From Gonocerus acuteangulatus (taxonomy: Eukaryota; Arthropoda; Insecta; Hemiptera; Coreidae), in contig OX328123.1 in NCBI GenBank assembly GCA_946811695.1, positions 10,239,698 to 10,303,697 on the forward strand: DNA of 64,000 nucleotides, written 5' to 3'. Below are positions 8,361 to 61,594 of this stretch, piece after piece. Positions within the stretch are counted from its first letter, which is position 1. Every line of letters begins with the position of its first letter. The notes below the pieces were generated by a model, which was given only the letters and a program-made list of their open reading frames with translations, searched no databases and was not told the DNA's origin. Both the position numbers and the translations under genes were made by a program.

Positions 8361-9229
8361 TTTCTATTGCAGATTATAATTCTACGAAAAATTGTATAAA
8401 TATTTGTTTCCTCTAACGATATTTTCGACATTGACAGCGCGAAACCCATTCAAGGAGCGGGCAAAGTTGCCAAATCCGCGATGCCAACTCTAATTTTTCA
8501 TCTAAGGAAAGAATCCTTGTTCATACAGATTGGGTAAAGAGTCGTATTTAGTAGTGAGTGGTAAACAATAACAGCCAATAAAATTATGGGTCTATTTATA
8601 TACAGAAATTTTGAAATAAATGTAGGCTCTGACTTTTTTTTTCAGACAAGGATAGGACTTACTTATTATCACGGTTTGATAGTTTTTCGAAAATATCACC
8701 TCAAATTACTGTTGGCACCTAAAACCTACGAAATGTCTTCCTCGGGAGATTATTTCAAATATATGAGATTAAAGCGGTTTTTGACGATTCTTGACCATTG
8801 TGCAGCGGAAGCTCTCTGGACTTCATAATAAGCCTACAAAAGTAATACTTTCACCGTGTTGTCATCTTCAGGCAAAGCTAATTAAAGCATTACCAATTAA
8901 ATCACCATAACCAATAATTGCTAATCATTGCTAGAATATTGCCTTAAAGTCCTTAGGACCTTGGCATTTCCCCTGATGGTTGCTAAAGCATTCTGCTAAG
9001 TACTAACTGCTGTAGTAGATCCTATTTCCGGTATCTGAGGTCGTAACCCTTCCTGTCGAATCTATACAAGGTGTTCAATTAACTACAGAAGATTCTCTAG
9101 GTATTCCTGAATCAATCCTGACCTATACTACCTCTCACGGGCTTCACGCTTCATGGATATTGCTCAATATGGAATCTCATACGCCTGACTTCAGGAAAGA
9201 AATTTACATTCATTTATCCGGTTTATAAT
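8361..9229. other. No recognisable gene
   Basis: AT-rich sequence with short open frames only. I recognise no family signature. Confidence 0.4.
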
Positions 9230-10080: not shown

Positions 10081-11459
10081 AGATATCCTCAATTCCTAGT
10101 TGTTATTTATATTTTCATTTTTTCCTGTCGATGGAGATAATTATTGAACTCTACCTTTCGCACAAAGTACTTTTTTATTTCCTCTCGGAATGGATGTTTA
10201 GCTAAATTTTGTATTTTTAAGGGTGGCCTCATTCCACTTCGTTACGAGCAGTTTTTTTTTTACAAAAAATGAGGATTATAATATAATAATATTTTTAGTA
10301 ACTTTAATTGGTCAAATATAATATATACAATACAATATATAAAACAATATACAACTTTATTGTATATATACAATTTTATGTAAATAAAATCCAAGAATAT
10401 ACATATTTTTATTGTTTTTTTATCCCAATAGGAGATAGGAAAGGCGCTAAAAACTAAGAGGATGATTGGTTGAGCGGGATGTTAGATTTAACGACCTATG
10501 GATTGGGTCGGCCTTGAACTGCCGTATTCAAGGCATTCAGGAATTCCAAACTGTTGAAATCACACTTCTCGGTAACCTAAAATGCATTTCGGCACATTAT
10601 ATTTTACGGAAGAAAATATGGATATGTAATAAAACAACCCAATAAATTTCTATTTAGTCAATTTGCATAATATTTTCTCAATTAAGATTTTAAAAAATTC
10701 TTGCAAAATACAAACAAAATGTTTTTCACATTTTAAATATTTAAAAATAAACCCCATTTTTCACAGATTGAAAATCGTTCAATTTGCGCAGCCTGAACAT
10801 TTTTTTTTTTTAATTTATTAACAATTTTTTGGCATACACATAAACTAAATATCTCAGTGAATTCAAACAAATTTAAATCGTATGGATGGGTTTTAAGGAA
10901 GAAAAACGTCAAAGGTTATCATCGTCCTGCAAAAAAACCCAAATGAAACCGGTGAACTCCATTACAATTTGCTTAACAAGACGATTAATATTACTCATTA
11001 GATATTCAATTATGTTCAGTAGATTCTGAGATATACAATGTCAAAGCGTGTCTTCCTAACACCGCTTTCTGATTTCAATTTGGGTGTAAATTCATGGATA
11101 TATTCAATTTGTTTATAAGTTTTAAAAAATTCTGAAGCCGTCCAATATGACCGATTTTCAATCTTGTAATATTTTTTTTATGAAAGCTTGAATGCCTTAG
11201 TTTGTTTTTTTAAAAAATATTTAAACTCTGTAAAGCATGTCGTTTGGATTTCCCAACAATTTGAAAAATGTTAATGGTTTCCCTAATACCTGAATTGTAC
11301 AATTATTATGCAAAAACTATCAAACCAATTAAAACGAAATTTAATGGGTTGTTTTATTATATAACCAACATTATTTTGCTAGAATATTAAGGACCTAGAT
11401 GCTTTTTAGTTCGCCGGGAAAAAATAGATAAAAAATTTCTATTTTTTGCCTTATATTTT
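10081..11459. other. No recognisable gene
   Basis: Very AT-rich DNA with no open frame longer than chance and no motif that I recognise. Its right edge, TTTTTTGCCTTATATTTTA, resembles the base order that resumes right after the 42-bp array. Confidence 0.4.
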
Positions 11460-12090
11460 ACTAGCCGAATACCCGTGCTTCGTCACGGAAGATAAGTAGT
11501 TACTAGCCGAATACCCGTGCTTCGTCACGGAAGATAAGTAGTTACTAGCCGAATACCCGTGCTTCGTCACGGAAGATAAGTAGTTACTAGCCGAATACCC
11601 GTGCTTCGTCACGGAAGATAAGTAGTTACTAGCCGAATACCCGTGCTTCGTCACGGAAGATAAGTAGTTACTAGCCGAATACCCGTGCTTCGTCACGGAA
11701 GATAAGTAGTTACTAGCCGAATACCCGTGCTTCGTCACGGAAGATAAGTAGTTACTAGCCGAATACCCGTGCTTCGTCACGGAAGATAAGTAGTTACTAG
11801 CCGAATACCCGTGCTTCGTCACGGAAGATAAGTAGTTACTAGCCGAATACCCGTGCTTCGTCACGGAAGATAAGTAGTTACTAGCCGAATACCCGTGCTT
11901 CGTCACGGAAGATAAGTAGTTACTAGCCGAATACCCGTGCTTCGTCACGGAAGATAAGTAGTTACTAGCCGAATACCCGTGCTTCGTCACGGAAGATAAG
12001 TAGTTACTAGCCGAATACCCATGCTTCGTCACGGAAGATAAGTAGTTACTAGCCGAATACCCGTGCTTCGTCACGGAAGATAAGTAGTTA
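11460..12090 (-). repeat. 42-bp minisatellite, 15 units, each a Helitron-type 3' end
   Basis: Fifteen head-to-tail 42-bp units, identical except for one G-to-A change in unit 14. Because 42 is divisible by 3, a 207-codon minus-strand frame runs through it; this is an artefact and not a protein. On the minus strand each unit reads CCGTG-ACGAAG-CACGG (a 5-bp-stem hairpin), then GTATTCGG, then CTAG followed by T. That is the layout of a Helitron 3' terminus: a hairpin a few bases before CTRR, with T after it. The near-identity of the units implies recent amplification. Confidence 0.9.
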
Positions 12091-17998: not shown

Positions 17999-18019
17999 TA
18001 ATCATCATATATATATATA

Positions 18020-19753
18020 CAGGGTGTCCCGTAAATGTCTAGTCATATTGTGAGAGGTGATAAAGGACCTTTAGTGGAACAAAAAATTTTCTATGACGAT
18101 TTCCCGAATTCTCGCCCTTAAGGGAGAAAATGTCGTTTTATTGTTTTGTCGAGACAAACGTGGTTTTTAGAAGAATATTCGTTGTTGCTTCGTCCCAGGT
18201 GGTACTACTAGAAAGGGAGTGAAACCAATCGAAAGCTGAGTAAATTTACTATAAGACTAGTTGGGAGTAAACGTAAAAATGAATGAATGTAAGTATGTAT
18301 ATCTTACCAAAAGAAAGCAATTGTAAATTTCCTGACATTTTCTTGATATTTCTTTCCAGCGTTACTCCTCAATGGGCAGGATCTGAGATTTCCGGGTTTC
18401 AGAAAAACTTCCTCATTTAACCAGCTTTCCATTCATGTATCACAACCCTGTGTTATTGAAGCAAGTGAACGATTTAAGAACAAAAGTTTTTAAAAAAAAA
18501 ACAAGGGCCTGTGAAAAGAAAATTATATTTTTTTCTTCAGTTTATTCAAAAAGCTTAAGAGAAATATTTATTTTTATAAATGTTTACATAAATATTAAGT
18601 AAATATTTACTTAAAATAATAAAAAAAATTACTTCCACAAATATAAAAAAAATATCCTAAAACAGTAAATAAATAAAATACACATATATTTTGAATTTGT
18701 TAATTACAGTAACTAATACTGGGTCCAGGAGGCGGCCATTAATGAACCCCAACCAAAAATTTACCTCAAAAATTACTATTTTTACCTAGATCACGCATTT
18801 GAACACATTTTTACAGGTATTTATATTTAGAAAACAAATCCTTTGCCTTGAATTGATACTGATGGCTACGCTTGTGAAACTCACTGGGATTCTCGTGAGC
18901 CCATGCGGTTTTGTTGTGGTAATGGAAAATTATATTCCTCATAAATAAGATGTAAATAGTCCTGTAAAAATGTGTTCAAATGCGTGATATAGGTAAAAAT
19001 AGTAATTTTTGTGGTTAATGTATGGTTGGGGTTCATTAATGGCCGCCTCCTGGACCCAGTATTAGTTACCTGAATTAATAAATTCAAAATAAATGTGTAT
19101 TTTATTTATTTACTGTTTTAGGATTTTTTTTATGTTCGTGGAAGTAATTTTTTTTATTATTTTAAGTAAATATTTACTTAATATTTATGTAAACATTTAT
19201 AAAAATAAATATTTCTCTTAAGCTTTTTGAATAAACTGAAGAAAAAAATATAATTTTCTTTTCACAGGCCCTTGTTTTTTTTAAAAAAACTTTTGTTCTT
19301 AAATCGTTCACTTGCTTCAATAACACAGGGTTGTGATACATGAATGGAAAGCTGGTTAAATGAGGAAGTTTTTCTGAAACCCGGAAATCTCAGATCCTGC
19401 CCATTGAGGAGTAACGCTGGAAAGAAATATCAATAAAATGTCAGAAAATTTAGAATTGCCTTCTTTTGGTAAGACATACATACTTACATTCATTCATTTT
19501 TACGTTTACTCTCAACTAGTCTTATAGTAAATTTACTCAGCTTTCGATTGGTTTCACACCCTTTTAAGTAGTACCACCTGGGACGGAGCTACAACGATTA
19601 TTCTTCTAAAAAGTACGTTTGTCTCGAAAAAACAATAAAACGACGTTTTCTCCCTTATGGGCGAGAATTCGGGAAATCGTCATAGAACATTTTTTGTTCC
19701 CCTAAGGGTCCTCTATCACCCCTCACAATATGACTAGACATTTACGGGACACC

Positions 19754-19756
<3 letters not shown>
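18020..19756. mobile_element. 1.74-kb palindromic DNA transposon (CAGGGTGTCCC ends)
   Basis: The ends are CAGGGTGTCCCGTAAATGTC in both orientations, flanked by TA repeats, which fits a Tc1/mariner-type TA insertion. The two halves pair almost base for base up to a loop near 18.83-18.96 kb (for example GGGTCCAGGAGGCGGCCATT at 18721 and its complement at about 19041). There is no transposase frame. It is a long-terminal-repeat foldback that needs enzyme supplied from elsewhere. Confidence 0.85.

Positions 19757-19822
<66 letters not shown>
19757..19822. repeat. (TA)n microsatellite
   Basis: TA array immediately after the palindromic element. It is probably an expansion of the TA target. Confidence 0.95.
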
Positions 19823-20977: not shown

Positions 20978-20983
20978 GTTTTT

Positions 20984-21168
20984 TTTTTTTTTTTTTTACG
21001 GCGCATCTACATCTAGGTTATTAGCGCCGACATCCAGGGTGTAGCGAGGAATTTTACCAGCGAGCCGTGGGATGATAAAATTCCTGCCGGAGGTTGGGAA
21101 TCGAACCCACCATCTCCCGCTTATGAATCCAAGGCGCTAGCCATTAGACCACGGGAGACCCCGATCAG
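20984..21168 (-). mobile_element. tRNA-headed SINE with shared 3' tail
   Basis: On the minus strand it has a tRNA-like head with A box (GTGGTCTAATGGCTAGCG) and B box (GGTTCGATTCCC), then a hairpin-forming body (GGAATTTTATCATCCC...GGTAAAATTCC). It closes with a conserved tail, TCGGCGCTAATAACCTAGAT then GTAGATGCGCCGT, and poly(A). The direct repeat CAGCTAGTT on both sides is the target duplication, taken from the Helitron 3' end. Confidence 0.85.
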
Positions 21169-23897: not shown

Positions 23898-25213
23898 GGG
23901 AAGGTGTTGTACCTTTGACCACTTTGCAAAGTTGATTTTTTTTTAGCTTGAATATTAAGGCATTCATTGTAATTAGCATTCTATTGTTTATCATATTTAA
24001 TTTTTTCAAGGTTCTAGCTTTACATTTAATATTTTTTATTAATTTTTTTAAAAATAATCATAGAGTGGTCAAAGGTACAACATGTAGTTGTACCTTTGAC
24101 CACGGGGTGTTGTACCTCTGACAACCTAAAAACAACTCAGCAGTGCAGAAAAAAAATTGTTAGAGTAATATTGTAATTAATTGTAAGTTTAATAAATACA
24201 GGACAAGAATGTAAGCATACTAAAAAAACTATTATTGATATTATGTTATGCTTAATATGCTGAAAAATCCAGTCCAATCGATAAACGCTTTAACTGTCAA
24301 GCAGATCCACTAGCAATAGTAGGGTATGGAAGTTTAGCCACAATGTCTTCAACATCAATATCATACAAATTTTCATCTTCTCTCGTAAACTTGTCACTTA
24401 AAGTTTTTTTTTTTTTTTTTCAAATATTGGATCTTAAAAATTGGACATTTATACCACAATCTCTGCGACTAAATATGTAATAGTATTTTTACTTTGATTT
24501 TTAAGAAGTATAAAATTTCATTTTTCCAAATCACATTTTTTTTTTTTTTTTTACGGCGCATCTACATCTTGGCCATTAACGCCGGGCTATCTATAGGTTG
24601 CCACCCTTTTATAATGCCAACAGCACGTGGTCGGTCACCCATTCAGGTACTGACCACGCCCAACGTTGCTGAACTTCGGTGATCTACGGCTACCGGTGTA
24701 TTCAACGTGGCTATGGCCGTTGGCCCCAAATCATATTTTTCAAATTGTTGCTGGTCATCGACTTAACTCACAGCATTTATCAGACCGATCAACCTCACTT
24801 TCTCCTGAAGACATTTCGGTGTCAGTATCAGAATCCGAACTCATCGTCATTATAACGACTTTTTTATTTATTTACCACTGTTTTAGGAAGAGGATAAATC
24901 AATTTCATAGGCTACACCATGTTTCTTATTGTAATAGCTACTTTGTCAAATGATTTCCATCTAAAAAGACATAATACAAAAAATATTATGGGGCAAAACG
25001 TCATCAATCAAGAACTTACTTTTTTATGATAGAAATGGATAAGTATTTTTTGCAAAAGTCCTCTTTGACTTGAATAATCCAAAGTAGGTTACACAAGCCT
25101 TCTAGTGAAGGAGCTAAACACTAATTACACCAAAATTTATAAAATGTTGCTACATTCCGCCACAGCCTAGGTGGTCAAAGGTACAATATGCTCAGAGGTA
25201 CAACACCTTCCCC
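23897..25213. mobile_element. TA-inserted DNA transposon, GGGGAAGGTGTTGTACC ends
   Basis: The left end GGGGAAGGTGTTGTACCTTT is repeated in complement at the right end, with TATA outside both. Subterminal copies of TTGTACCTTTGACCAC lie near 24066-24124 and 25168-25205. On the minus strand short frames remain, among them DENLYDIDVEDIVAKLPYPT and an acidic SDSDTDTEMSSGESE, which look like pieces of a transposase C-terminal region but are not decisive. A 5S-headed SINE interrupts it. The TA target points to the Tc1/mariner/pogo superfamily. Confidence 0.7.
24540..24726 (-). mobile_element. 5S-rRNA-headed SINE (SINE3-type), best copy
   Basis: On the minus strand it opens with 5S rRNA sequence: GCCAACGGCCATAGCCACGT, GATCACCGAAGTTCAGCAAC, GTTGGGCGTGGTCAGTACCT, GAATGGGTGACCGACCACGT and GCTGTTGGCAT. 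This covers the whole ~120-nt molecule, including the internal Pol III control region. It continues into TATAAAAGGGTGGCAACCTA and the conserved tail CCGGCGTTAATGGCCAAGAT then GTAGATGCGCCGT and poly(A). The tail is the same as in the tRNA-headed SINEs. The direct repeat CCAAATCAYATTTT flanks it. It is SINE-borne and so not a ribosomal 5S gene. Confidence 0.9.
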
Positions 25214-29872: not shown

Positions 29873-30410
29873 AGCAATTATTATAGCGGTTAATATATTG
29901 TTAAATTAAATTGTAATTAAAGTTTATAAAACAAATCTAGGAGTTTTGACTATGGTAATAATAATGACCATAAGGTAAGAAACAATACAGTGGGGTAAGA
30001 ACATTCGGACAAACTACATTTATACAGAAAAAAATAGCTTATTTATTGTATTTTTTAAACCCCTCGTCTGTCGCATTGGTGCTGGCTGATAGAGACGCTC
30101 TCCCAGACTACTCCCGCACTGGTGGGGGCTGGCGAAGACACTATGTTTTATCATAAAATTGAATTCTCGTTTTCTAGTAGTTTTCCTAGTTCACTACATG
30201 ATAGCAAATGATATATAACATGCTCCCGACTCCTCTATTTGGGCTAAACTTAATAATGAGTAAAGGAACGGAGAGAAATAAAAAATTGGCTAACTGTGAG
30301 CGTGCAACACTAGCCAAAAGAATTCCGCGTGACCCGCACAACTCCTGCGCATTGAAGGTAAAAGTCAAAAGAATAAGGAAAATATCTTCATAAATTAATA
30401 TTAACTAACT
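29873..30410. other. No recognisable gene
   Basis: It includes a 61-codon plus-strand frame ending just before the 105-bp array. The composition is not convincing as coding, and I recognise no family. Confidence 0.35.
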
Positions 30411-31845
30411 AGGGCCCGGCCAGGTAGAGAGATCGCCGCACTACAGGGTCGGTCAGCCGGCACTACCCCCTAGTAAGCTAAAGGTCGAGAGGAGGGCGAG
30501 AATAGCTTCGTAACTAGGGCTCGGCCAGGTAGAGAGATCGCCGCACTACAGGGTCGGTCAGCCGGCACTACCCCCTAGTAAGCTAAAGGTCGAGAGGAGG
30601 GCGAGAATAGCTTCGTAACTAGGGCCCGGCCAGGTAGAGAGATCGCCGCACTACAGGGTCGGTCAGCCGGCACTACCCCCTAGTAAGCTAAAGGTCGAGA
30701 GGAGGGCGAGAATAGCTTCGTAACTAGGGCCCGGCCAGGTAGAGAGATCGCCGCACTACAGGGTCGGTCAGCCGGCACTACCCCCTAGTAAGCTAAAGGT
30801 CGAGAGGAGGGCGAGAATAGCTTCGTAACTAGGGCCCGGCCAGGTAGAGAGATCGCCGCACTACAGGGTCGGTCAGCCGGCACTACCCCCTAGTAAGCTA
30901 AAGGTCGAGAGGAGGGCGAGAATAGCTTCGTAACTAGGGCCCGGCCAGGTAGAGAGATCGCCGCACTACAGGGTCGGTCAGCCGGCACTACCCCCTAGTA
31001 AGCTAAAGGTCGAGAGGAGGGCGAGAATAGCTTCGTAACTAGGGCCCGGCCAGGTAGAGAGATCGCCGCACTACAGGGTCGGTCAGCCGGCACTACCCCC
31101 TAGTAAGCTAAAGGTCGAGAGGAGGGCGAGAATAGCTTCGTAACTAGGGCCCGGCCAGGTAGAGAGATCGCCGTACTACAGGGTCGGTCAGCCCGCACTA
31201 CCCCTAGTAAGCTAAGGGTCGAGAGGAGGGCGAGAATAGCTTCGTAACTAGGGCCCGGCACGGTAGAGAGGTCCCCCGTACTACAGGGTAGATCAGCCCG
31301 CACTACCCCTATTAAGCTAAGGGTCGAGAGGAGGGCGAGAATAGCTTCGTAACTAGGGCCCGGCACGGTAGAGAGATCGCCGTACTACAGGGTCGGTCAG
31401 CCCGCACTACCCCTATTAAGCTAAGGGTCGAGAGGAGGGCGAGAATAGCTTCGTAACTAGGGCCCGGCACGGTAGAGAGGTCCCCCGTACTACAGGGTCG
31501 ACCAGCCCGCACTACCCCTATTAAGCTAAGGGTCGAGAGGAGGGCGAGAATAGCTTCGTAACTAGGGTTCGGCCAAGTAGAGAGATCACCGTATTACAGG
31601 GTAGATCAGCCCGCACTACCCCTATTAAGCTAAGGGTCGAGAGGAGGGCGAGAATAGCTTCGTAACTAGGGCCCGGCACGGTAGAGAGATCGCCGTACTA
31701 CAGGGTCGGTCAGCCCGCACTACCCCTATTAAGCTAAGGGTCGAGAGGAGGGCGAGAATAGCTTCGTAACTAGGGCTCGGCCAGGTAGAGAGATCACCGT
31801 ACTACAGGGTCGATCAGCCCGCACTACCCCTAGTAAGCTAAGGGT
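30411..31845. repeat. 105-bp GC-rich minisatellite, about 14 units
   Basis: The unit starts AGGGCCCGGCCAGGTAGAGA and ends GGCGAGAATAGCTTCGTAACT. The first seven units (to about 31145) are nearly identical at exactly 105 bp. The later ones are 104-105 bp and carry shared variants (CACGGTAGAGAGGTCCCCCG, CCCTATTAAGCTAAGGG). Since 105 is a multiple of 3, minus-strand frames with a 35-residue repeat run through it; these are artefacts. The array is a GC island in a roughly 30% GC region. Confidence 0.92.
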
Positions 31846-35616: not shown

Positions 35617-35799
35617 CACAGTTTTAGGTCGCTTTGTAGTGAATCCATTTCGACTTAAATCGCTTTCATAGGCCTCTACTTGTTGGAAATAGTTTGAGAA
35701 AATGTTAATAATATTAGTACCCCCTAAACCTTCCTTTTGGAACTACTATGCTAATTTTTTTTTTTTTTTTTTTGCTTTTTTTTTTACGGCGCATCGACG

Positions 35800-35828
35800 C
35801 ACAGTGTAACGTCAAATGGACAAAAACC
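35800..35828 (+). promoter_or_regulatory. 12-RSS-like left terminus (13-base spacer)
   Basis: Heptamer CACAGTG at 35800-35806, spacer TAACGTCAAATGG, nonamer ACAAAAACC at 35820-35828. Both signal blocks are identical to the RAG consensus. It is presumably the transposase binding and cleavage site. Confidence 0.8.
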
Positions 35829-36697
35829 TGAATTTTTGTTTTCTTATATTTAATTTTTAATCCTCTAGCTAAGTTTAGAAACTATTCGAGGAATTAAAAT
35901 CATATAAAACTAATAAATATTAGTTTTATTTTGATCACCAAACACATTAGCAGTATTATAAACAACGCTAAGTCTTTAAAACCTGCTTTATAGCAACAAT
36001 CAGTTTGAGCCTCTCTCGTTGAAGATAGGACAGTGTTTTTATTAAGTCATCCGAAGGAAATTACGTCAAAACTATTCCTTTTATATCTGATATAATTGAT
36101 TACAAGTAATTACTCCCTTATTATTTATCCTGAATTATTCTTCATTAATTTTTTACATTTTTCTAAAGTACAAAATTTTGATAGACCATAACTATCATAA
36201 TTTTTTCTTCTAAATTTGAAAATAAATTTGGATAAATCCAAGAAAACGGTATAAATCTTCGGGCAAATGATTCAATTTGATCTGCAGGTTGTTCCCAAAA
36301 AAATATTATAAATATTGCCAGTTTAGTCTTATATTAAATGTAAAAAATGTGGGGACGTGTTCACCGCAGAGAAAAAACTCTTATATAAATACTGGTTGAA
36401 ACAATATATCAACTTAAAATAAATTGTTATTAATTTTTATCAAGAAAAAAGATATTCTCGTTCTGATGGCCCTTCTGGCTTCCTTAGAGGCAGACATAAA
36501 CAAGAGTTTATTACTACATTACATGTTACAGTTATATTATATTTTGTAATATTGTGATTAATAATATTATTTCCTGATGTATTATTTCTATTAATATTAC
36601 AATTAATATTATTATTGCCGTATAGTATTATTGTTACCTTGTTTTGAGTTGATTTCAATTAATAAAAATGCTTATTTGAAAATAACTAGTGGTTAAT

Positions 36698-36736
36698 GAT
36701 TTTTGTCCATAATCTCCACTACTTCGTTACACTGTG
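36698..36736 (-). promoter_or_regulatory. 23-RSS-like right terminus (23-base spacer)
   Basis: Read on the minus strand: heptamer CACAGTG (36736-36730), a 23-base spacer starting TAACGAAGTAGTGG and ending ATGG, then ACAAAAATC (36706-36698). The spacer is exactly 10 bases, one helical turn, longer than at the other end. TAACG and ATGG at the two edges of the spacer are common to both ends. Confidence 0.8.
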
Positions 36737-36773
36737 CGACGTCTTGGCCATTAGCGCCGACTACTATGCTAAT

Positions 36774-36961
36774 ATTCGCAATTTTGAAAATGTTAACAAT
36801 TACATAGGTCATGGGTTTCCTCGTGGTCTAATGGCAGACGCATTGGATTCTCACAAAGGAAGTATAGAGCGGTTGTGTGACCGATTTGGCCCATTTATTT
36901 CTGGTGATTCTGCATGGAAAAATAGTAGACACGTCTCCGAGCATTTCATCCTTAGGAGCTG
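36774..36961 (+). other. Possible tRNA-like remnant
   Basis: GTTTCCTCGTGGTCTAATGG resembles the A-box region of the tRNA-headed SINEs (CCGTGGTCTAATGGCTAG), but no B box follows. The 88-codon frame across it is probably chance. Confidence 0.25.
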
Positions 36962-45446: not shown

Positions 45447-46532
45447 ATGGAGGCAGAACAATTTAAAATAAAAAAAAAAACTAGGGAAAAACTTAATAAT
45501 TTCGCACAAGAAATTAAATCTATTTCAGAGCAAGGTCGGAGCGTTAAGACTGATGCATCTAAATTATTTTTATTCAAGGCAATGTACACGGACTTGAAAC
45601 CAATTTACACTTCCTTTTGCAGTCTGTGGGAGGAATTCCTTGAAATTTTACATCAATCCGGGGGAACCCTGGAAGGGCCAGATGCTGCCCTCAAGCAGAC
45701 TGCAAGACGACATTACTATGAAGCCTGTGCGATATATGAACAATACATGAATCCCACTCCAGTTGCAGGTGCTGTAGGAACCTCACGAGTTGCCGAAGCA
45801 TCGGTACTCAATGAGAGCCGAACTGTTGGAGCTCGCTTGCCACAAATCAGTCTTCCACATTTTGGAGGAAATCCACCGGAATGGCCCTTATTCCGCGACA
45901 CCTACCTTTCATTAATTCACAATGAAGCATCCCTTTCAGACATGGAAAAGTTCCTCTTTCTGCTATCATGTCTTAGTGGTCCTGCGCGTTCTCTAATTGC
46001 AAATATCAGTCTTACTGAGGCTAACTACCAACAAGCGTGGACGTGATTGTCAGGGCATTATAATAATAACCGCAAGTTAGGTCACACATATTTAAAGGAA
46101 GTGATCGATTTCAAACCACTTTCTGGAAAGCCCACACCTAGCTCCCTTAGTAAGATACTTACTTGTGTCATCGAGGCTATTGACTCTTTTAAACAGCTGA
46201 ATATTCCCAACCCTTGTGACTTTATCCTTTCGTATCTAGTACTATCGTGTCTGGATCCTGCTACTAAGACGCAATTCGAAAAACAACATCCAAATGTGGA
46301 ATTTCCCTCTTATAAGAATTTAGTAGACTTTATTAAAACTGAGTGGAAATCAATGGATATCCAATTTTGTGATTCTGAGTCTCCATCAAGTACTAATAAG
46401 ACTTCTAACCGATTCATCTCATCTCCCCGTTTCAACGCGAGTTCCAAGAACACTCTTTTCGCTGGAAACGGAAACCACGAGAAGACGGCTATCGATCATC
46501 AACACCGTCAAATGAACAAACCACAAAACTAG
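45447..46532 (+). pseudogene. Bel/Pao gag region, two stops
   Basis: The ATG opens MEAEQFKIKKKTREKLNNFA, typical of the Pao-type gag start. The DUF1759-like block follows: LPQISLPHFGGNPPEWPLF, then FRDTYLSLIHN and SDMEKFLFLLSCLSGPA. An in-frame TGA lies at 46044 (inside that block, right after QQAWT) and a TAG at 46530. The frame is otherwise uninterrupted, so the two stops are point mutations in one reading frame. Gag forms the virus-like particle in the cytoplasm. The next feature continues in the same frame. Confidence 0.88.
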
Positions 46533-46535
46533 ACG

Positions 46536-47525
46536 ATGTCTGCTGATCACTGTCCTGTGTGCAAGTCATTCCATACTCTATACCAATGCAAAAACTTCAA
46601 GGATGCTTCTGCCAGTTCAAAACTTGATCTTTTGAAAGATTGGCAGGGTTGTTTCAATTGCCTTTCCAGTAAACATTCTACCCATTCTTGCACTTCCCTC
46701 AGGCGATGTAGCGTCTGTAACCATAACCATCATTCATGGCTACATCAGAACCAGGTTCAAGGTGCCATAAGATCTCCAACGCAAGGCGCTCAGTCTCAGC
46801 CAGTGCAGAATAAGCAGGACAAAGGAGTGTCCCTAGGAAGCCTCTCAGTAGAAGGAGAAGTTCTTCTAGGAACTGCAGTCGTCCAGATAAGAGATTCCGA
46901 AGATGAATGTCAACGAACCAGGATGGTGACAGACAGTGGAAGCCAGTTTTCGTTCATGACGATAAATTGCGCACAACGACTTGGACTCATGGTTGAACCA
47001 TCGAATCATAGCATCTCCGGTATAGGTCAAGTACATCTCCCTCAAACCCTCGGGAAACTCAGATGCACTATTAGATCGTCTATCCCCTCGTTTATGGCAA
47101 AGGAGCTTTCTACTCAAGTAATAGTTGTCCCAAAAATTACGAGTGATCTACCTAAATCTTCTCTTTCGTCGTCAATGCAATCTCATTATAAGGGCTCTGG
47201 CTTAGCTGATCCAGAGTACTGGAAACCAGGTCCAGTTGAGTTTTTACTAGGAGGAGACCTTTTCTTAGATATTATAACTGGGTCCCTAATAATGATTACT
47301 CAGGAAATGCCTAGGCTTCTTCCAACCATTTTTGGATTCATTGTTGCAGGGCCTCTGCATATCCAGGAAAAGGCAACTGAGGGATCAAGTTTCCTAGTTC
47401 ACGGGCGTAGTTCCATAAAGGATATTATGCATAAGTTTTGGGAAGTTGAAGAAGTAGCCTCAATTCACCTTCCGAAGAAGACAAGCATTGTGAAAACCAC
47501 TTTATCGATACTCACTATCGTTTAG
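46536..47525 (+). pseudogene. Bel/Pao gag zinc knuckles and protease
   Basis: In frame with the preceding gag. Cysteine/histidine clusters occur in order: CPVCKSFHTLYQC, CFNCLSSKHSTHSC and CSVCNHNHHSWLH. The last two are nucleocapsid-type zinc knuckles. The aspartic protease follows, with its active-site motif in MVTDSGSQFSFM (DSG) and the downstream LGLMVEPSNHSISGIGQ and LLGGDLF stretches. The frame then runs into a TAG, because a frameshift at about 47490-47520 separates it from the reverse transcriptase frame. Pao-type elements normally encode all this as one polyprotein. Confidence 0.9.
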
Positions 47526-48577
47526 AATCAGGAAGGTACGTCGTGTCTCTACCATTGAAGAATACGATTCAGTCTCTAGGAAACACACGCACCCAAGCCC
47601 TCAAGAGATTGACCAGCTTAGAAACCAAACTATCTAAGGAACCGAAGCTCAAAGAGGAATACACACTTTTCATGAGAGAATATCTTGATTTGGGACATAT
47701 GAAACAAGTTCCCTTTGGTACGGCAGCTTTCATGTTACCACATCACACAGTGGCCAAACATCAACAAGATCAGATTAAACTTCGTGTAGTTTTCGACGCT
47801 TCTTGTAAATCCTCTACCGGATCCCTAAATGATAATTTATTTGTTGGTCCCAAGCTTCAGTTGGACATTCGTGACATTATTACCAATTTTAGAATCCATT
47901 GCATAGTCTTCACCGCGGACATTGCAAAAATGTATCGCCAAATATTGCTACATGGTCCGGATAGAAAGTATCAGCACATCTTATGGCGTTTCGATACCTC
48001 GGATGCAGTTCAGGAGTACAAATTATGCACCGTTACATATGGAGAAGCTTGTGCACCATACCTTGCCCAAAGGACAATCCGACAGCTGGTAAAGGATGAA
48101 GGAGAGTCATATCCTCTTGCTTCCAAGGCATTACTTAATGATATTTATGTCGATGATGTAGTAACAGGTGCATCCTCAGAAAAAGAAGCTATTGCCCTCC
48201 AAGCCGAGCTTCTAGAACTGCTTGGAAAAGGTTGCTTTGACCTGAGCAAGTGGGCTAGTAACAGCCAGAAGCTGCTACGGAATGTCAAAGAGACGCAATG
48301 CCAAATGAAGGCCGTCAGTTTGGCCTCTGAGGAAGAGCCGAGAATCAAACTTCTAGGAATGCAGTGGATTCTGATTAAAGATTGCTTTACTTATGAAATT
48401 ACCCCTCCTCCATTTATTCCTTCTAAAAGAGCAATTCTTTTTGCCATAGCTCGTATATATGATTCTCTGGGATTTCTGTCTCCCGTAGTATTTTATGCCA
48501 AAACATTATTACAAGACATGTGGGTCTCGCATTGCTCATGGGATGAAGTAGGGCCACCGCACATTTGTGAGAAATAG
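47493..48577 (+). pseudogene. Bel/Pao reverse transcriptase
   Basis: In the frame shifted relative to protease. It shows GRYVVSLPLKN, then LRVVFDASCKSSTGSLNDNL, the first catalytic Asp in VFTADIAKMYRQI, TYGEACAPYLAQRTI, and the active site YVDD (48146-48157). It continues through the connection region (DLSKWASNS, LLGMQWI) to a TAG at 48575, where the family generally has Trp, so a TGG to TAG change is likely. No other stop interrupts about 360 codons. The enzyme would copy genomic RNA into DNA. Confidence 0.93.
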
Positions 48578-49003
48578 CGTAGGTTCTTGTCTCAGCTCTG
48601 GGCACATTCTGAAATTGTGATACCGCGCCAAATTACACACGAAGACACCATTTCAACCATGCTTCTATGTTTCAGCGATGCATCTCAAAGGGGTTACTCG
48701 GCTATATTATATCTTGTCGTGCTAACAAGCACCAATTGCCATGTACATCTTCTCAGAGCAAAAACTAAATTGGCGCCTATAAAACCCAAGACCATACCAA
48801 GACTTGAACTTTCCGGAGCATTACTCCTTAGCCGCCTTTACAATTCTTGCCTTGAATTGTATTCTACCCTCAATATCTCAGCGGTTATGCTTTACACAGA
48901 TTCCGAGATCATCTTGAGTTGGTTGTCCACACCTCCCCAAAACTTAAACGCATTTGTGTCGCATCGCGTGGTGCAGATTTTGGACCTTACCACACGATCT
49001 TAG
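48578..49003 (+). pseudogene. Bel/Pao RNase H
   Basis: Same frame as the reverse transcriptase. The visible motifs are CFSDASQRGYSAILYL (first Asp), TIPRLELSGALLLSRL (Glu) and LYTDSEIILSWLSTPPQ (Asp). It ends at a TAG, after which the frame continues WHHVRSEENPADCSSRG. That motif is normally preceded by Gln-Trp, so CAG to TAG is the likely change. Confidence 0.9.
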
Positions 49004-50029
49004 TGGCACCATGTAAGGTCAGAAGAAAACCCAGCTGATTGTAGCTCAAGAGGACTTCTGCCTTCAGAACTTTCTAACCATTCGTTATGGTGGGCGGGAC
49101 CGCATTGGTCTAAATTGCCATTTGACCAATGGCCTCAAGAATTCCGTAAACTTGACACGGTCCCAGAAACGAAACAAGCAGTTCTTGTAACCGTTGCGCC
49201 TGAGATACCAAGTATCGTTCAATGGATGGAACATTTTTCACAATACTCTAGGCTGCTTCGCAGCGTAGCATATGCACTACGATTCATCAAGAGATGTAAA
49301 CGCCAGCATTCTCTTCATGGTGCTATTACTCTGCCCGAAATCAAAGCTTCGACCAAGAGCTGCATTAAGGTCACTCAATCCCACCACAAGGTAGATGAGA
49401 AAGCTCTACGTGCCTTAAATGCGTTTCTGGATGATGATGGTATTCTCAGGGTGGGCGGTAGACTCCGAAATTCCCCCTTGCTATTTGATGCCAAGCATCC
49501 AATTATACTTTCCGGGAAGAGCCATTTCGCAGCACTCCTTGTTGATCATTATCACAAATCCTATTTACATGCTGGGCCTACTGCTCTACAAGCTATGTTG
49601 CAATCCAGGTATTGGATCGTGTCAGGGAGGCAACTAATCCGCAGTCGCGTTTTTAGTTGTTTGAAATGCTATAAGGAGAAGAAGGTTCCCCAAGCTTCAC
49701 TGATGGGCAATCTTCCAGCTTTTCGGCTCGAAGAAGGTAAGGTGTTCAATCACGTTGGTGTGGATTTTGGTGGGCCGTTCTATATTAGAGAATCCACTAG
49801 GCGCAAGGCCTCACTGAGCAAAGCGTACCTTGGACTTTTCATTTATATGTCTACAAAGGACGTGCATTTGGAAGTGATCTCGAGGTGCACCACTGAAGCC
49901 TTCTTGGCTTTTGATCGGTTTGTCGCACGCCGTGGCAAAACAGAACATATGATTTCCGACTGCGGTACCAACTTTATAGGAGCAGCCAATAAACTGAAAG
50001 AACTCGCTCTTTGGCAGAACTCTCAGCTG
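49004..50029 (+). pseudogene. Bel/Pao integrase, truncated before its last catalytic residue
   Basis: Same frame. The N-terminal HHCC zinc-binding module is present (HPIIL...HYHKSYLHAG...FSCLKC). The catalytic core shows VGVDFGGPF (first Asp) and MISDCGTNFIGA (second Asp). The sequence then leaves the family at about 50029, right at the edge of the large inverted repeat, so the catalytic Glu and the C-terminus are absent here. The piece after the inverted repeat (60475 on) may hold a decayed continuation. Integrase would insert the DNA copy into the genome. Confidence 0.9.
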
Positions 50030-50169
50030 GAATTAAAACTGTTTTTTTGTTGGTTTGTTTAATATCCCATATAAAACTTATGAATTGAAAAATATTGATT
50101 TATTTGTAAGTATAAAGTAAGTCTATAATATCCTGTACTTAACTATTTAAAATGTAAACTCAACAATAA

Positions 50170-53865: not shown

Positions 53866-54088
53866 ATATTTTTTTATTTATTTTATTTTTATTATTTTTT
53901 TTATTTATTTATTTTTTTTTTACGTCGCATCGACAAATCTTGGCCATTAGCGCCGACATCCAGGGTGCAGCCAGGAATTTTCTCAGCGAGCCTTGAGATG
54001 AGAAAATTCCTGTCGCCGACGGGGATCGAACCCACCATCTCCCGCTTATGAATCTAGCGATCTAGCCACTAGACCACGCGAGACCCCT
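53866..54088 (-). mobile_element. tRNA-headed SINE with shared 3' tail
   Basis: On the minus strand: tRNA-like head GTCTCGCGTGGTCTAGTGGC with B box GGTTCGATCCCC, the hairpin body (GGAATTTTCTCATCTCAAGG), the tail GTCGGCGCTAATGGCCAAGA, TTTGTCGATGCGACGT and an A-rich end. The direct repeat TATATTCAATA flanks it. Same family as 20984-21168. Confidence 0.88.
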
Positions 54089-56460
54089 ATATTCAATAAT
54101 GTTGCAATTCCTGTGTGAAGTGTTGTATTCATTGATCAATGGTATTTACGAAATACAGTGGAACATGGATAATTCGAACTTCGATAATTCGAAATCGTCT
54201 TTAATTAAAATATTTCTCTCGGTCCCTAGAAATTAGGGTATGAACAATGTAAAAAAAATCGTGGTTAATACGAATAAAATTTTGGGTAATTGAAATTTTT
54301 TAGAAGTCAGTACCTCCAAAGGGAAGTGGACAGAGAGGCGGTCGATCCTAAATCTTGTGAAAATATTCTCCCCTCGGGTAAGAAGGATAGTAAGATACGG
54401 ATGTGGGACGAAACGATTAAAACCGCAGACATTCAATGTTATACCTCTTAACATCCTCGTTTCGGCCTCAAAACTCAAAACCAAATGTTTTCGAGGGTGT
54501 AGAACTCAAATCTGAAGTCATTTTATTTTTATCTTGTCGGGATTTTTGGTCAATGAGCTAAAAGCCTAAAATTTCAGGTTTTATATTTTCCGGGAGGGAG
54601 GTATAATTTCCTTTTGTTTTTCTTGCACTGAATCCCATGAAATCCCACGTCACTCTGGATAATTTCGGAGCCTTTTGAGTGACAATTGTTTCAATTTTTA
54701 TATTTTACATAATAGACATACTTAACAAAAATTTACCCCATTAAATCAAAATAGAAAAAAAAGGTCAGGGAAGCAAAACATTCCTGAACGAAAGTAATAG
54801 CAATTTTTTTTTTCTCCATCTAATAATAAAAATATATAATGGGAAACGTTTTTGCAAAAACAGTATCGTTTGATTCATTGAATCCTACTTAATGTTTACT
54901 CTACTTCAATCAGCATGTACTCTGAACTTACTTCTGGGAGTCCCTGAACACTTTATTCTAGGCCTCTTGCGATTTTTCTGAAAATGTCTCTAGGTAGGGA
55001 CTATTTAGGCATTATAACGCTTTCCTTATGATTTTCTCTCCGTAGATTAGAACTTTATGGACAGTGGCTGGCGTGTAGAGCAAAATCAAACCAAATTTGG
55101 ACGGTCGATAAAGGCTCCAAAGTTACACATTTGCTTTTAATCGGGGTATTTTAACGTGTAATGGGCTTGACATTATATGCAAGAAAATTATAATGTTATG
55201 TTTATTTTGAGAACCATTTCTTACAAGTATCATCTAAGATGATACAATAGTCATTTATATGGTTAGAAGAAGGCGTCTTTCTTCTTTAGAAATGACGTAA
55301 ATATTGCATTATCTCAAGGGGAGATATTGAATTTTAAAACGCCACGTAAAGTTTTCACTTACAAATTTGTAAACCTTGGGGTGCTGGTTTTAAATCTACT
55401 ATTATTTTTGGTGTGAAAAATTTATAATGCTAGTTTACTTAAAAACTATTGTTTAACGATAGTATTTTTTCTGTTATCTACTCTCAAAAACAAATGAATT
55501 TTTGATAAAATCATGTCGTTATGATTTTCTAAACTCGATATAAAAAATAAAGCACTTTCAACCTATTTTATTTTATTTCGCTCCTAAGGCGTATTGGACG
55601 GAACGCTCGGACACGTGTCGACTATTTTTTGATGCAGAATCACCAGAAAAAATGCTCAAATCGTTGACCCCAGCTCTGTATACTCCCCTTTTGAGCTATT
55701 CGGCGATGAAGCTGTTGCCACTCAATGCCACTACTTCTTCAAACATGAATAGGGCTCCTGAGCCCCGGCGGATAAAATGTTTACGTGTATCTCTTACTTA
55801 GGTATATATCTTAGTATATCTCTTATCAGATCCCCGACAACTCGCCACACACTCTTCTATTTTCCTTTTCTTTTGAACTACATCTATTTTTATCACAAAA
55901 GGTATAAAAAACAAAACAAAAAATTGCTGTTTAAAAATTTAGGTTATTTTTTCCAGAAGCGTACAATGACCAAAAGAAGCTCAAAAATATTTGCAGATGA
56001 AAAAAAAAAGTATGCTTCTGTGCAGCATCAATAATGAGTTACGGCGTATCCTATGAAATTCGCGGGGAAAAGATAAAAGTATAGGGTATTACGAGCATTT
56101 TTGCGCAGTCTGCTGCTTTTTCAGATACCCTGGACAGTGTGGAACAAGTCCTTGTAGTTGTCGAACAAAAAAAACAAGTTTCAAATTCGGCCAATGTCGC
56201 GGGGTTTGGGCGTTTCGTCCCACTGTGCGGCGGTCTCATAGTCTAGTTCTTGGACTCTAGGAGTTCTGCAAAGTGATGGGTCGCGCTTCCTCCCTTCCAG
56301 GGGTTGTTATAGTTACATCCTGTCGTTTTATCCTAGAATTCCCTCCCACCATCCCTCCCATCTTCATTTCTTATTCAGTTATAAGTCAGTCAGCGTCTAG
56401 ATCTGTAGTATTGTTTGTGCCTTGAATTTCTGGTGTACAAAGCAGTTCTGTGAGTTGTTA

Positions 56461-56640
56461 ATTTAAGACGTCGAAGGCTAGAAGTTATAAAACTTTAACG
56501 TTGTCAGAGAAAATAGCTGTGATTAAAGAAGTTGAAAAAGGAATAAAGAAAAAATCTTAAATTGCCAAGGAATTCCTCCTAATACTTTACCAACTTACCT
56601 GAAAAATAAAGAAAAAATTCTTGATCTAAGGGGTTAGGTC
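56461..56640 (+). pseudogene. pogo-like transposase, CENP-B-type N-terminus
   Basis: The frame gives KTLTLSEKIAVIKEVEKGIK, then KKS, a stop and IAKEF, with the following KNKEKIL-like words in shifted frames. This is the first helix-turn-helix (psq/CENP-B N) that binds the terminal repeats in pogo/Tigger transposases. A nonsense codon and indels follow. The DDE domain is gone. The minus-strand copy at 33.5 kb is the same stretch cut by a family-H insertion. Confidence 0.75.
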
Positions 56641-56740
56641 CGCCAGTAAATATACTGTTGTCATACCTGTCGGTGGAGGCCGTCGTCACTGGCATCTGTG
56701 CGAGTACTGTGGGCGAGCGCTTTCGACGTAAATACGTCAT

Positions 56741-56800
56741 TATCAAGCCACTGTTAAGTTAGTACTCCCTTACTGTACTAACTTAACAGTGGCTTGATAA
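56741..56800. repeat. Perfect hairpin, ~27-bp stem
   Basis: TATCAAGCCACTGTTAAGTT plus AGTAC is followed after a few bases by its exact complement. It lies inside the pogo-like element. Confidence 0.85.
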
Positions 56801-57344
56801 TCAGTGTTCTTGCCCAAGAAAATGACTTTTTTCAAAACAATAGACTTTTATTTTTACTTTTTTGATAAATTATTTATTACTTATGTACGTAATCATCAAT
56901 TTATGAAATATTTGTCATTGTTTAAATAAAATGTATATACGTTTTTAAATTTAAAATTGTGAAAATATGAAATTCGATTTTTTACCCCTTTATATTCAAA
57001 AACTTTTTTAATTCGAATTTTGGATAATTCGAACTTTTTTATCGGTCCCTAGGAGTTCGAATTATCCAAGTTCTACTGTATCTACACTACTTGATAACTC
57101 TGATTGCTATATACACTGCTATCTGTCGTCTACACGGGGAACTAATAGGTTCTCTAGTGTGTATTACCGTTTCTCGTACTTCTAACGCGATGAATCCGAA
57201 TTTTTCTAGTATGCTCTCAAATGTACTAGTAAATTGTGAAAAAATAAAATAAAATAAAACAACCAAAAAAACTTTAAAAGTGTATAAGAACTGCAGGAAT
57301 GGAGATGGAAAACATTTTATGGATCTTAATCAAGGGTCAATCCA

Positions 57345-61158: not shown

Positions 61159-61594
61159 CATCATTGGGAGTGTCTTATTTAACTTTACCAGTTTTATTTT
61201 ATTTTTTATAATACAAATCTGACTTTTTCAACATAATCTATGCCTTGTTGTAGTGTATAAGATTATTTTTTCTTATAAACTCTCGGCACTTTAGCTCGTG
61301 TTACTTTAGTCAGTAGATTAACGAAACATAGATTCGTTAACTCTGGTCTCCCTTCAAAACGTATAAATCTTTCGCCTTTTACTAAAGATTTCCGTGGAGG
61401 GGGACTTTTGATGAGTCTATAAATAATTTTTTGATAGCACTCCTGAATACTCCTGAAGTTAATGGGGGTCAGCGATTAAGAAGGCTTCTTTCTATTTGAT
61501 CTCTTTGTAATCGCTCACCACCCTGTCATGAGCGTATATAAAAAATAATGTCGGAGGTGGCTTAGACTATTATCCGTTGTATAGAATAATAACA
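61159..61594. other. No recognisable gene
   Basis: Nothing coding and no repeat family that I recognise. Confidence 0.4.

Follow-up and report, generated by a model that had tools for sequence, protein, structure and literature searches.

The 64,000-nucleotide stretch of Gonocerus acuteangulatus DNA analysed here (contig OX328123.1; hereafter the window) carries, at positions 35800..36736 of the plus strand, a 937-bp element that is in all probability a non-autonomous Transib transposon and whose two ends resemble the recombination signal sequences (RSSs) of V(D)J recombination. The left end consists of the heptamer CACAGTG (35800..35806), a 13-bp spacer, TAACGTCAAATGG (35807..35819), and the nonamer-like block ACAAAAACC (35820..35828), which agrees with the consensus nonamer at 9/9 positions. 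Read inward on the minus strand, the right end consists of CACAGTG (36730..36736), a 23-bp spacer, TAACGAAGTAGTGGAGATTATGG (36707..36729), and the nonamer-like block ACAAAAATC (36698..36706; 8/9). We refer to these as the 13-end and the 23-end. The element is flanked on the plus strand by the target-site duplication (TSD) CGACG, at 35795..35799 on the left and 36737..36741 on the right. A first-pass annotation of this DNA had reported the duplication, the heptamers, the spacers and both nonamers, and re-reading of the sequence confirmed them with correct coordinates and lengths; its assignment to a Transib-type element also holds, judging from the ends and the 5-bp CG-rich duplications.

The 12-bp terminus CACAGTGTAACG is present at both ends, and an inner block, ATGGACAAAAAYC, is common to both arms (ATGGACAAAAACC and ATGGACAAAAATC, 12/13 identical), so that both ends are bipartite, with an outer part of 12 bp and an inner one of 13 bp that lie 4 bp apart on the left and 14 bp apart on the right. 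The terminal heptamers, which are inverted, are of the CACWRTG type of the Transib superfamily in this element and in the copies described below. With a G+C content of 26% and a longest stop-free stretch of 72 codons, the element is gene-less, and a comparison of 31 Transib transposases with the element alone as database returned nothing credible (best E 0.31).

The insertion interrupted a short interspersed nuclear element (SINE) or retroposon tail on the minus strand (35742..36776), which has a poly-A stretch and is flanked by the 17-bp near-repeat ACTACTATGCTAATWTT. When the flanks of the element are joined, the tail becomes continuous and resembles three uninterrupted relatives in the window, at 53892-53957, 24536-24584 and 20979-21031 (86-90% identical). 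The three SINEs to which these positions belong (20979-21165, 24536-24724 and 53892-54090) have a common 3' tail ending in or near GATGCGCCGTAAAA; two of them are tRNA-like by eye and one has a 5S rRNA match (24615-24724). SINE tails were found at 2 of 38 empty sites of family copies, the window's own included, and in 19 of 3,000 random stretches, and these numbers are too small to claim a preference of the family for SINE tails.

The element belongs to an abundant family, which we call the CACAGTGTAACG family. In the genome searched (1,106,117,616 bp, 135 contigs), CACAGTGTAACG occurs 1,440 times (726 + 714), against 26 (12 + 14) for a reversed control, and the 13-type end with ACAAAAA was counted 280 + 291 times, the control giving 0 + 0. 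Copies were drawn from the first 100 of the 1,440 end places, 88 of which were fetched or lay in the window, while 12, including one facing pair (78.37 Mb), were left out; 60 stretches were fetched around these places, together with loci from the CACAGTGTAACG search, and the resulting census comprised the window and 66 loci, with all ends checked against the family consensus. It yielded 41 complete copies, the window's included. Their spacers were exactly 13/23 in 39; of the other two, one measured 13/22 and one 13/16, and a 13/13 or 23/23 arrangement was found in none of the 41. Classified by end type, 40 of the 41 have one 13-end and one 23-end; in the exception, L106, the end opposite the 13-end was accepted by its exact 12-bp terminus and has a spacer of 16, and by eye it looks like a 23-end shortened by 7 bp. 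The 13/23 asymmetry and the nonamer-like block, which the first-pass annotation had described for one element, thus recur in the other copies of the sample.

At the 13-end, the nonamer score was 9/9 in 22 copies, 8/9 in 16 and 7/9 in 3, and at the opposite end it was 8/9 in 34, 7/9 in 6 and 6/9 in 1. The consensus of the 13-end reads CACAGTG TAACGTCCAATGG ACAAAAACC and that of the 23-end CACAGTG TAACGAAGTAGTGAGGATTATGG ACAAAAATC. Taken as a whole, the family has ends that are asymmetric in the 12/23 manner (12 and 23, ±1, with nonamer-like blocks). Perfect 5-bp duplications surround 24 of the 41 complete copies (CGGCG 8, CGCCG 8, CGACG 2, and six others once each); 19 of the 24 have the form CGNCG, in keeping with the CG-rich 5-bp duplications of Transibs. 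A further 27 ends were partnerless, 18 of them of the 13-type, 7 of the 23-type and 2 damaged. Among 28 aligned copies of the 30 that are shorter than 1.6 kb, identity to the majority sequence ranged from 88.9 to 97.3%, the window copy standing at 94.6%.

Transib/RAG1-related transposase sequences, which the first-pass annotation had proposed to look for, are abundant in this genome, with at least 74 matches, many of them remnants. A transposase was found inside none of the 41 complete copies, and among the fetched stretches two (L114 and L117) had Transib coding sequence, in each case outside the sequence of the CACAGTGTAACG family. L114 was considered as a transposase-coding copy and rejected, its coding sequence being a Transib remnant beyond a truncated copy, with a far end that resembles the L150 end; at L117, likewise, a small Transib remnant lies outside the truncated family copy. 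A set of 25 loci picked from the transposase matches was examined for Transib ends, 5 of them read whole and 20 as 3' flanks (about 800-950 bp), and ends were recognised at 13; in 8 of the 20 flanks a CACAGTG end adjoins CG-rich sequence, and 12 gave no convincing end. The terminus nearest to CACAGTGTAACG among the 25 was CACAGTGTCACG at L150 (G000:C15:79092960-79093780), one base away; this locus has the end CACAGTGTCACGAGTATATGGGGTAAAAAATC and an A-rich block, TAAAAAATC, 16 bp from the heptamer, which indicates that spacer length varies among the Transib families of the genome. Searches with Transib alignment A1 (17 of the 31 proteins) gave 25 stretches in viral contigs and 102 in prokaryote genomes, none of which was confirmed, and the named proteins among the 120 matches listed of 273 in a RAG1 search were vertebrate RAG1.

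Four transposase-coding Transibs of other families could be followed from end to end, and three of them have near-symmetric ends, with the second block 22-25 bp in. The element at L129 (TSD TGGCG, 3,050 bp) has ACAAAAGTC and ACAAAAGTA, both at 23, and that at L131 together with L154 (TSD CGGCG, 3,665 bp) has CCAAAAATC at 22 and at 25; L130, a sister of L131 that is 95.8% identical over the longest stretch, likewise has the block at 22 at its 3' end. The element at L133 has, at 23 and 22, an ACAT block unlike the nonamer, and its flanks, CATTG and CAGCG, form no perfect duplication. The fourth, L132 (TSD CGCCG, 3,134 bp), has AAAAAATTC at 23 on one end and no recognisable block on the other, so that its symmetry cannot be judged. 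Where it can be read, the second block thus usually lies 22-25 bp in on both sides, and the 13-end of the CACAGTGTAACG family is the odd one out.

The frames of at least 100 amino acids in these four Transibs are the transposase, frames antisense to it and, in L133, a 196-amino-acid upstream frame that by eye may be the N-terminus of the transposase; no RAG2-like frame was recognised among them. The nonamer-binding-like domain sought at the suggestion of the first-pass annotation is weakly hinted at. Two structural alignments reach a region that we take to be the nonamer-binding part of RAG1, with root-mean-square deviations of 7.9 and 8.3. Comparing profiles of the Transib N-terminal block and the RAG1 nonamer-binding domain (NBD) gave no significant match, and 3 of 31 Transib transposases contain a GRP motif.

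The window also contains a decayed Transib that does not belong to the CACAGTGTAACG family. A fragment of its transposase, comprising the C-terminal catalytic region with stops, lies at 54943..55077 on the minus strand, and its likely limits are 54399..56227 (minus), where an end with CGCCG adjoining CACAGTGGGACGAAACG at 56227 faces a degenerate inverted copy at about 54399-54433. This inverted-end match was reached by none of 2000 shuffles; a first inverted-repeat test had given no support, being confounded by a second element. The end also appears to resemble the 3' end of the Transib locus L143. The confounding element, which has inverted ATACAGTRGAACNTGGATAATTCGAACT ends at 54153-57081 and encloses the decayed Transib, is presumably pogo/Tigger-like. 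A minus-strand heptamer at 8802 with TCAAAAACC at a spacer of 11 was considered as a further element and rejected, as no partner end with a 5-bp duplication was found in the window. Elsewhere the window holds the frames of a BEL/Pao-type retrotransposon at 45447-50062 (DUF1759, DUF1758, Peptidase_A17, RVT_1 and Integrase_H2C2), a full-length match to U5 spliceosomal RNA at 61338-61455 (97.6 bits), a tandem array with a period of about 105 bp at 30406-31845, a near-perfect tandem array at 11458-12090 with an 84-bp shift, whose open frame repeats the 14-residue unit TKHGYSASNYLSSV, and a large inverted repeat at 18007-19769 with 647-nt arms (96%).

Our results make it highly probable that the CACAGTGTAACG family is a non-autonomous, MITE-like (miniature inverted-repeat transposable element) Transib family mobilised in trans by a Transib transposase, a mechanism made likely by the many Transib/RAG1-type transposase remnants in the genome. 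The transposase of another element would bind the heptamer through its RNase H-type core, its N-terminal region would touch the inner block, cutting at the heptamer would proceed by nick and hairpin, and the element would insert at CG-rich 5-bp sites. As the simplest history, the 13-end may have arisen from a 23-type end of an ancestor by the loss of 10 bp in one arm; because this is close to one helical turn, the inner block would stay on the same face of the DNA, and the enzyme may have tolerated or preferred the shortened end. A role for the inner block is argued for by its retention at both ends and by the shift of about one helical turn.

Several points weigh against this reading. The autonomous partner that the first-pass annotation had called for was not found: CACAGTGTAACG was present at 0 of the 25 Transib loci read whole or in part, and the 18 Transib coding places on contig C1 all lay further than 6 kb from any of the 13-type ends listed. 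As no coding copy with CACAGTGTAACG ends was found, the trans-mobilising enzyme is one that we infer. The derivation of the 13-end from a 23-end is a matter of parsimony rather than observation, and the copies have diverged by 2.7-11.1% from the majority sequence, so the family may be extinct. The copies were sampled on one contig, over its first 81.65 Mb, and required one exact 12-bp end, and because ends were paired with the nearest facing end within 8 kb, a few long copies may be two copies.

That the ends resemble RSS nonamers by coincidence in AT-rich DNA is very improbable. A-rich words are common, ACAAAAACC occurring 3 times and words of at least 8/9 occurring 38 times among 127,984 window positions; yet among 20,000 elements simulated by a first-order Markov model of the 937-bp element, with spacers of 10-26, both ends reached at least 8/9 in just 1, and 9/9 together with at least 8/9 in none. 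Since one arm repeats the other, the two nonamer matches do not count as independent; an inner block of 12/13 appeared in 2 of 1,000 simulated elements. The block is, moreover, common to both arms, and its spacing is fixed through the copies examined. Among 11 facing heptamer pairs in the window (100-6,000 bp apart), the one with a 5-bp duplication is the 937-bp element; in 200 simulated windows, 2 of 1,360 facing pairs had such a duplication and none had a 12-bp identical repeat. For 60 single heptamer-13-nonamer matches in viral contigs, the surrounding viral DNA showed a facing heptamer with an 8/9 nonamer or a 5-bp duplication in none, and other scans of viral contigs for end patterns gave no matches. 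On the strength of the simulations, the viral-contig matches and the window heptamer pairs, coincidence of the ends was rejected. What may possibly be coincidental is the likeness to the vertebrate nonamer in particular, rather than the presence of an A-rich transposase-binding block.

For the asymmetry itself, the odds are about even that it is a neutral relic, in which a 10-bp deletion in one arm of a founder was tolerated and amplified by a transposase blind to spacer length. The recognisable second block lying 22-25 bp in among the four transposase-coding Transibs makes the 13-end look derived, the block at 16 in L150 agrees with such latitude, and so do the single complete copies with 13/16 and 13/22, which may however reflect decay after insertion. 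Against neutrality stand a change close to one helical turn, the retention of the inner block at the short end, where 22 of the 41 copies match the nonamer exactly, and the recurrence of a similar 12/23-type asymmetry in Drosophila Transib5 and several Anopheles Transibs, as related in excerpts of PMC8355894. The first-pass annotation had leaned the other way, inferring that the transposase may use a 12/23-like pairing rule and nonamer recognition. In its full form this explanation has the enzyme enforce a true rule, joining a 13-end to a 23-end, and recognise the nonamer-like block through a nonamer-binding domain in the manner of RAG. The pairing of unlike types in all complete copies but the 13/16 one, with like never joined to like, the inner block of at least 7/9 at 81 of their 82 ends, and the reach of the two structural alignments all speak for it, and an NBD-equivalent has been reported in Transibs (PMC9435367). 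Common descent, however, would produce a constant 13/23 asymmetry whatever the enzyme prefers, and neither the non-significant NBD profile comparison, the GRP motif in so few transposases nor the size of the structural deviations encourages it. We consider this explanation unlikely: as far as sequence can tell, a 12/23-like pairing rule appears unsupported, and it is not general in this genome, given the near-symmetric ends of three of the four coding Transibs. Mobilisation in trans of a non-autonomous family remains the reading that we prefer.

The first-pass annotation had singled out the near-intact nonamers and the asymmetric pair as what stands out, and here there is prior art. Excerpts of PMC8355894 credit Kapitonov and Jurka (2005) with 12/23 asymmetric ends in Transib5 of D. 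melanogaster and in Transib2, N1, N2 and N3 of A. gambiae; the spacers there measure 12 or 23 (±1), and some of the heptamers and nonamers match canonical RSSs exactly. Such ends share the RSS-like heptamer and nonamer of the CACAGTGTAACG family, in which the spacers are 13/23; the comparison is by description only, and the high copy number is what was seen here. Some Transib ends with identical heptamers and nonamers have various spacers (excerpt of PMC6941560), and ends are asymmetric in the whole of Subgroup I and part of Subgroup II of the Transibs, both subgroups having an NBD-equivalent (PMC9435367). The arrangement is thus known, and the CACAGTGTAACG family appears to be a new and abundant instance of it, for which the titles and abstracts listed in a literature search gave no report, without any claim that it is absent from print.

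Most Transib families are symmetric according to the part of PMC8289069 available to us. The same part describes HzTransib, for which nick-hairpin cleavage at the heptamer is reported (excerpt of PMC6941560), as having a likewise RSS-like heptamer but symmetric ends with little or no nonamer similarity, whereas the CACAGTGTAACG family has one short end and a nonamer-like block at both; related transposases are present in this genome. RAGL/ProtoRAG and AanRAGL also have bipartite asymmetric ends (PMC8289069, in the same part; PMC9435367), and the 13-bp and 10-bp blocks of AanRAGL, with 4/13 bp between them (PMC9435367), come close to the plan of 12 bp, 4/14 bp and 13 bp found here. These elements differ in carrying RAG2-like genes and other end sequences (same sources), in contrast to the four Transibs of this genome in which no RAG2-like frame was recognised. 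With the vertebrate 12RSS and 23RSS, the 937-bp element shares CACAGTG, a nonamer that is ACAAAAACC at one end and scores 8/9 at the other, and a spacer difference of about one turn, but the 12RSS spacer is 12 bp rather than 13, and here the sequences are transposon ends and not host recombination signals.

Asymmetric Transib ends are known from few families, and the CACAGTGTAACG family adds hundreds of ends in one genome, keeps a 12/23-like pattern in nearly every checked copy of a high-copy family and has an exact consensus nonamer on one end. Since this asymmetric family and near-symmetric coding families stand side by side in one genome, they are open to comparison, and if the cognate transposase is found, it could be tested in a system free of RAG2 whether unlike ends must pair and what the nonamer-like block does. 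It seems a long shot to us that an invertebrate Transib transposase, working without RAG2, insists on unlike ends and recognises the nonamer through its N-terminal domain, but if it did, the 12/23 rule and nonamer recognition would be older than RAG2.
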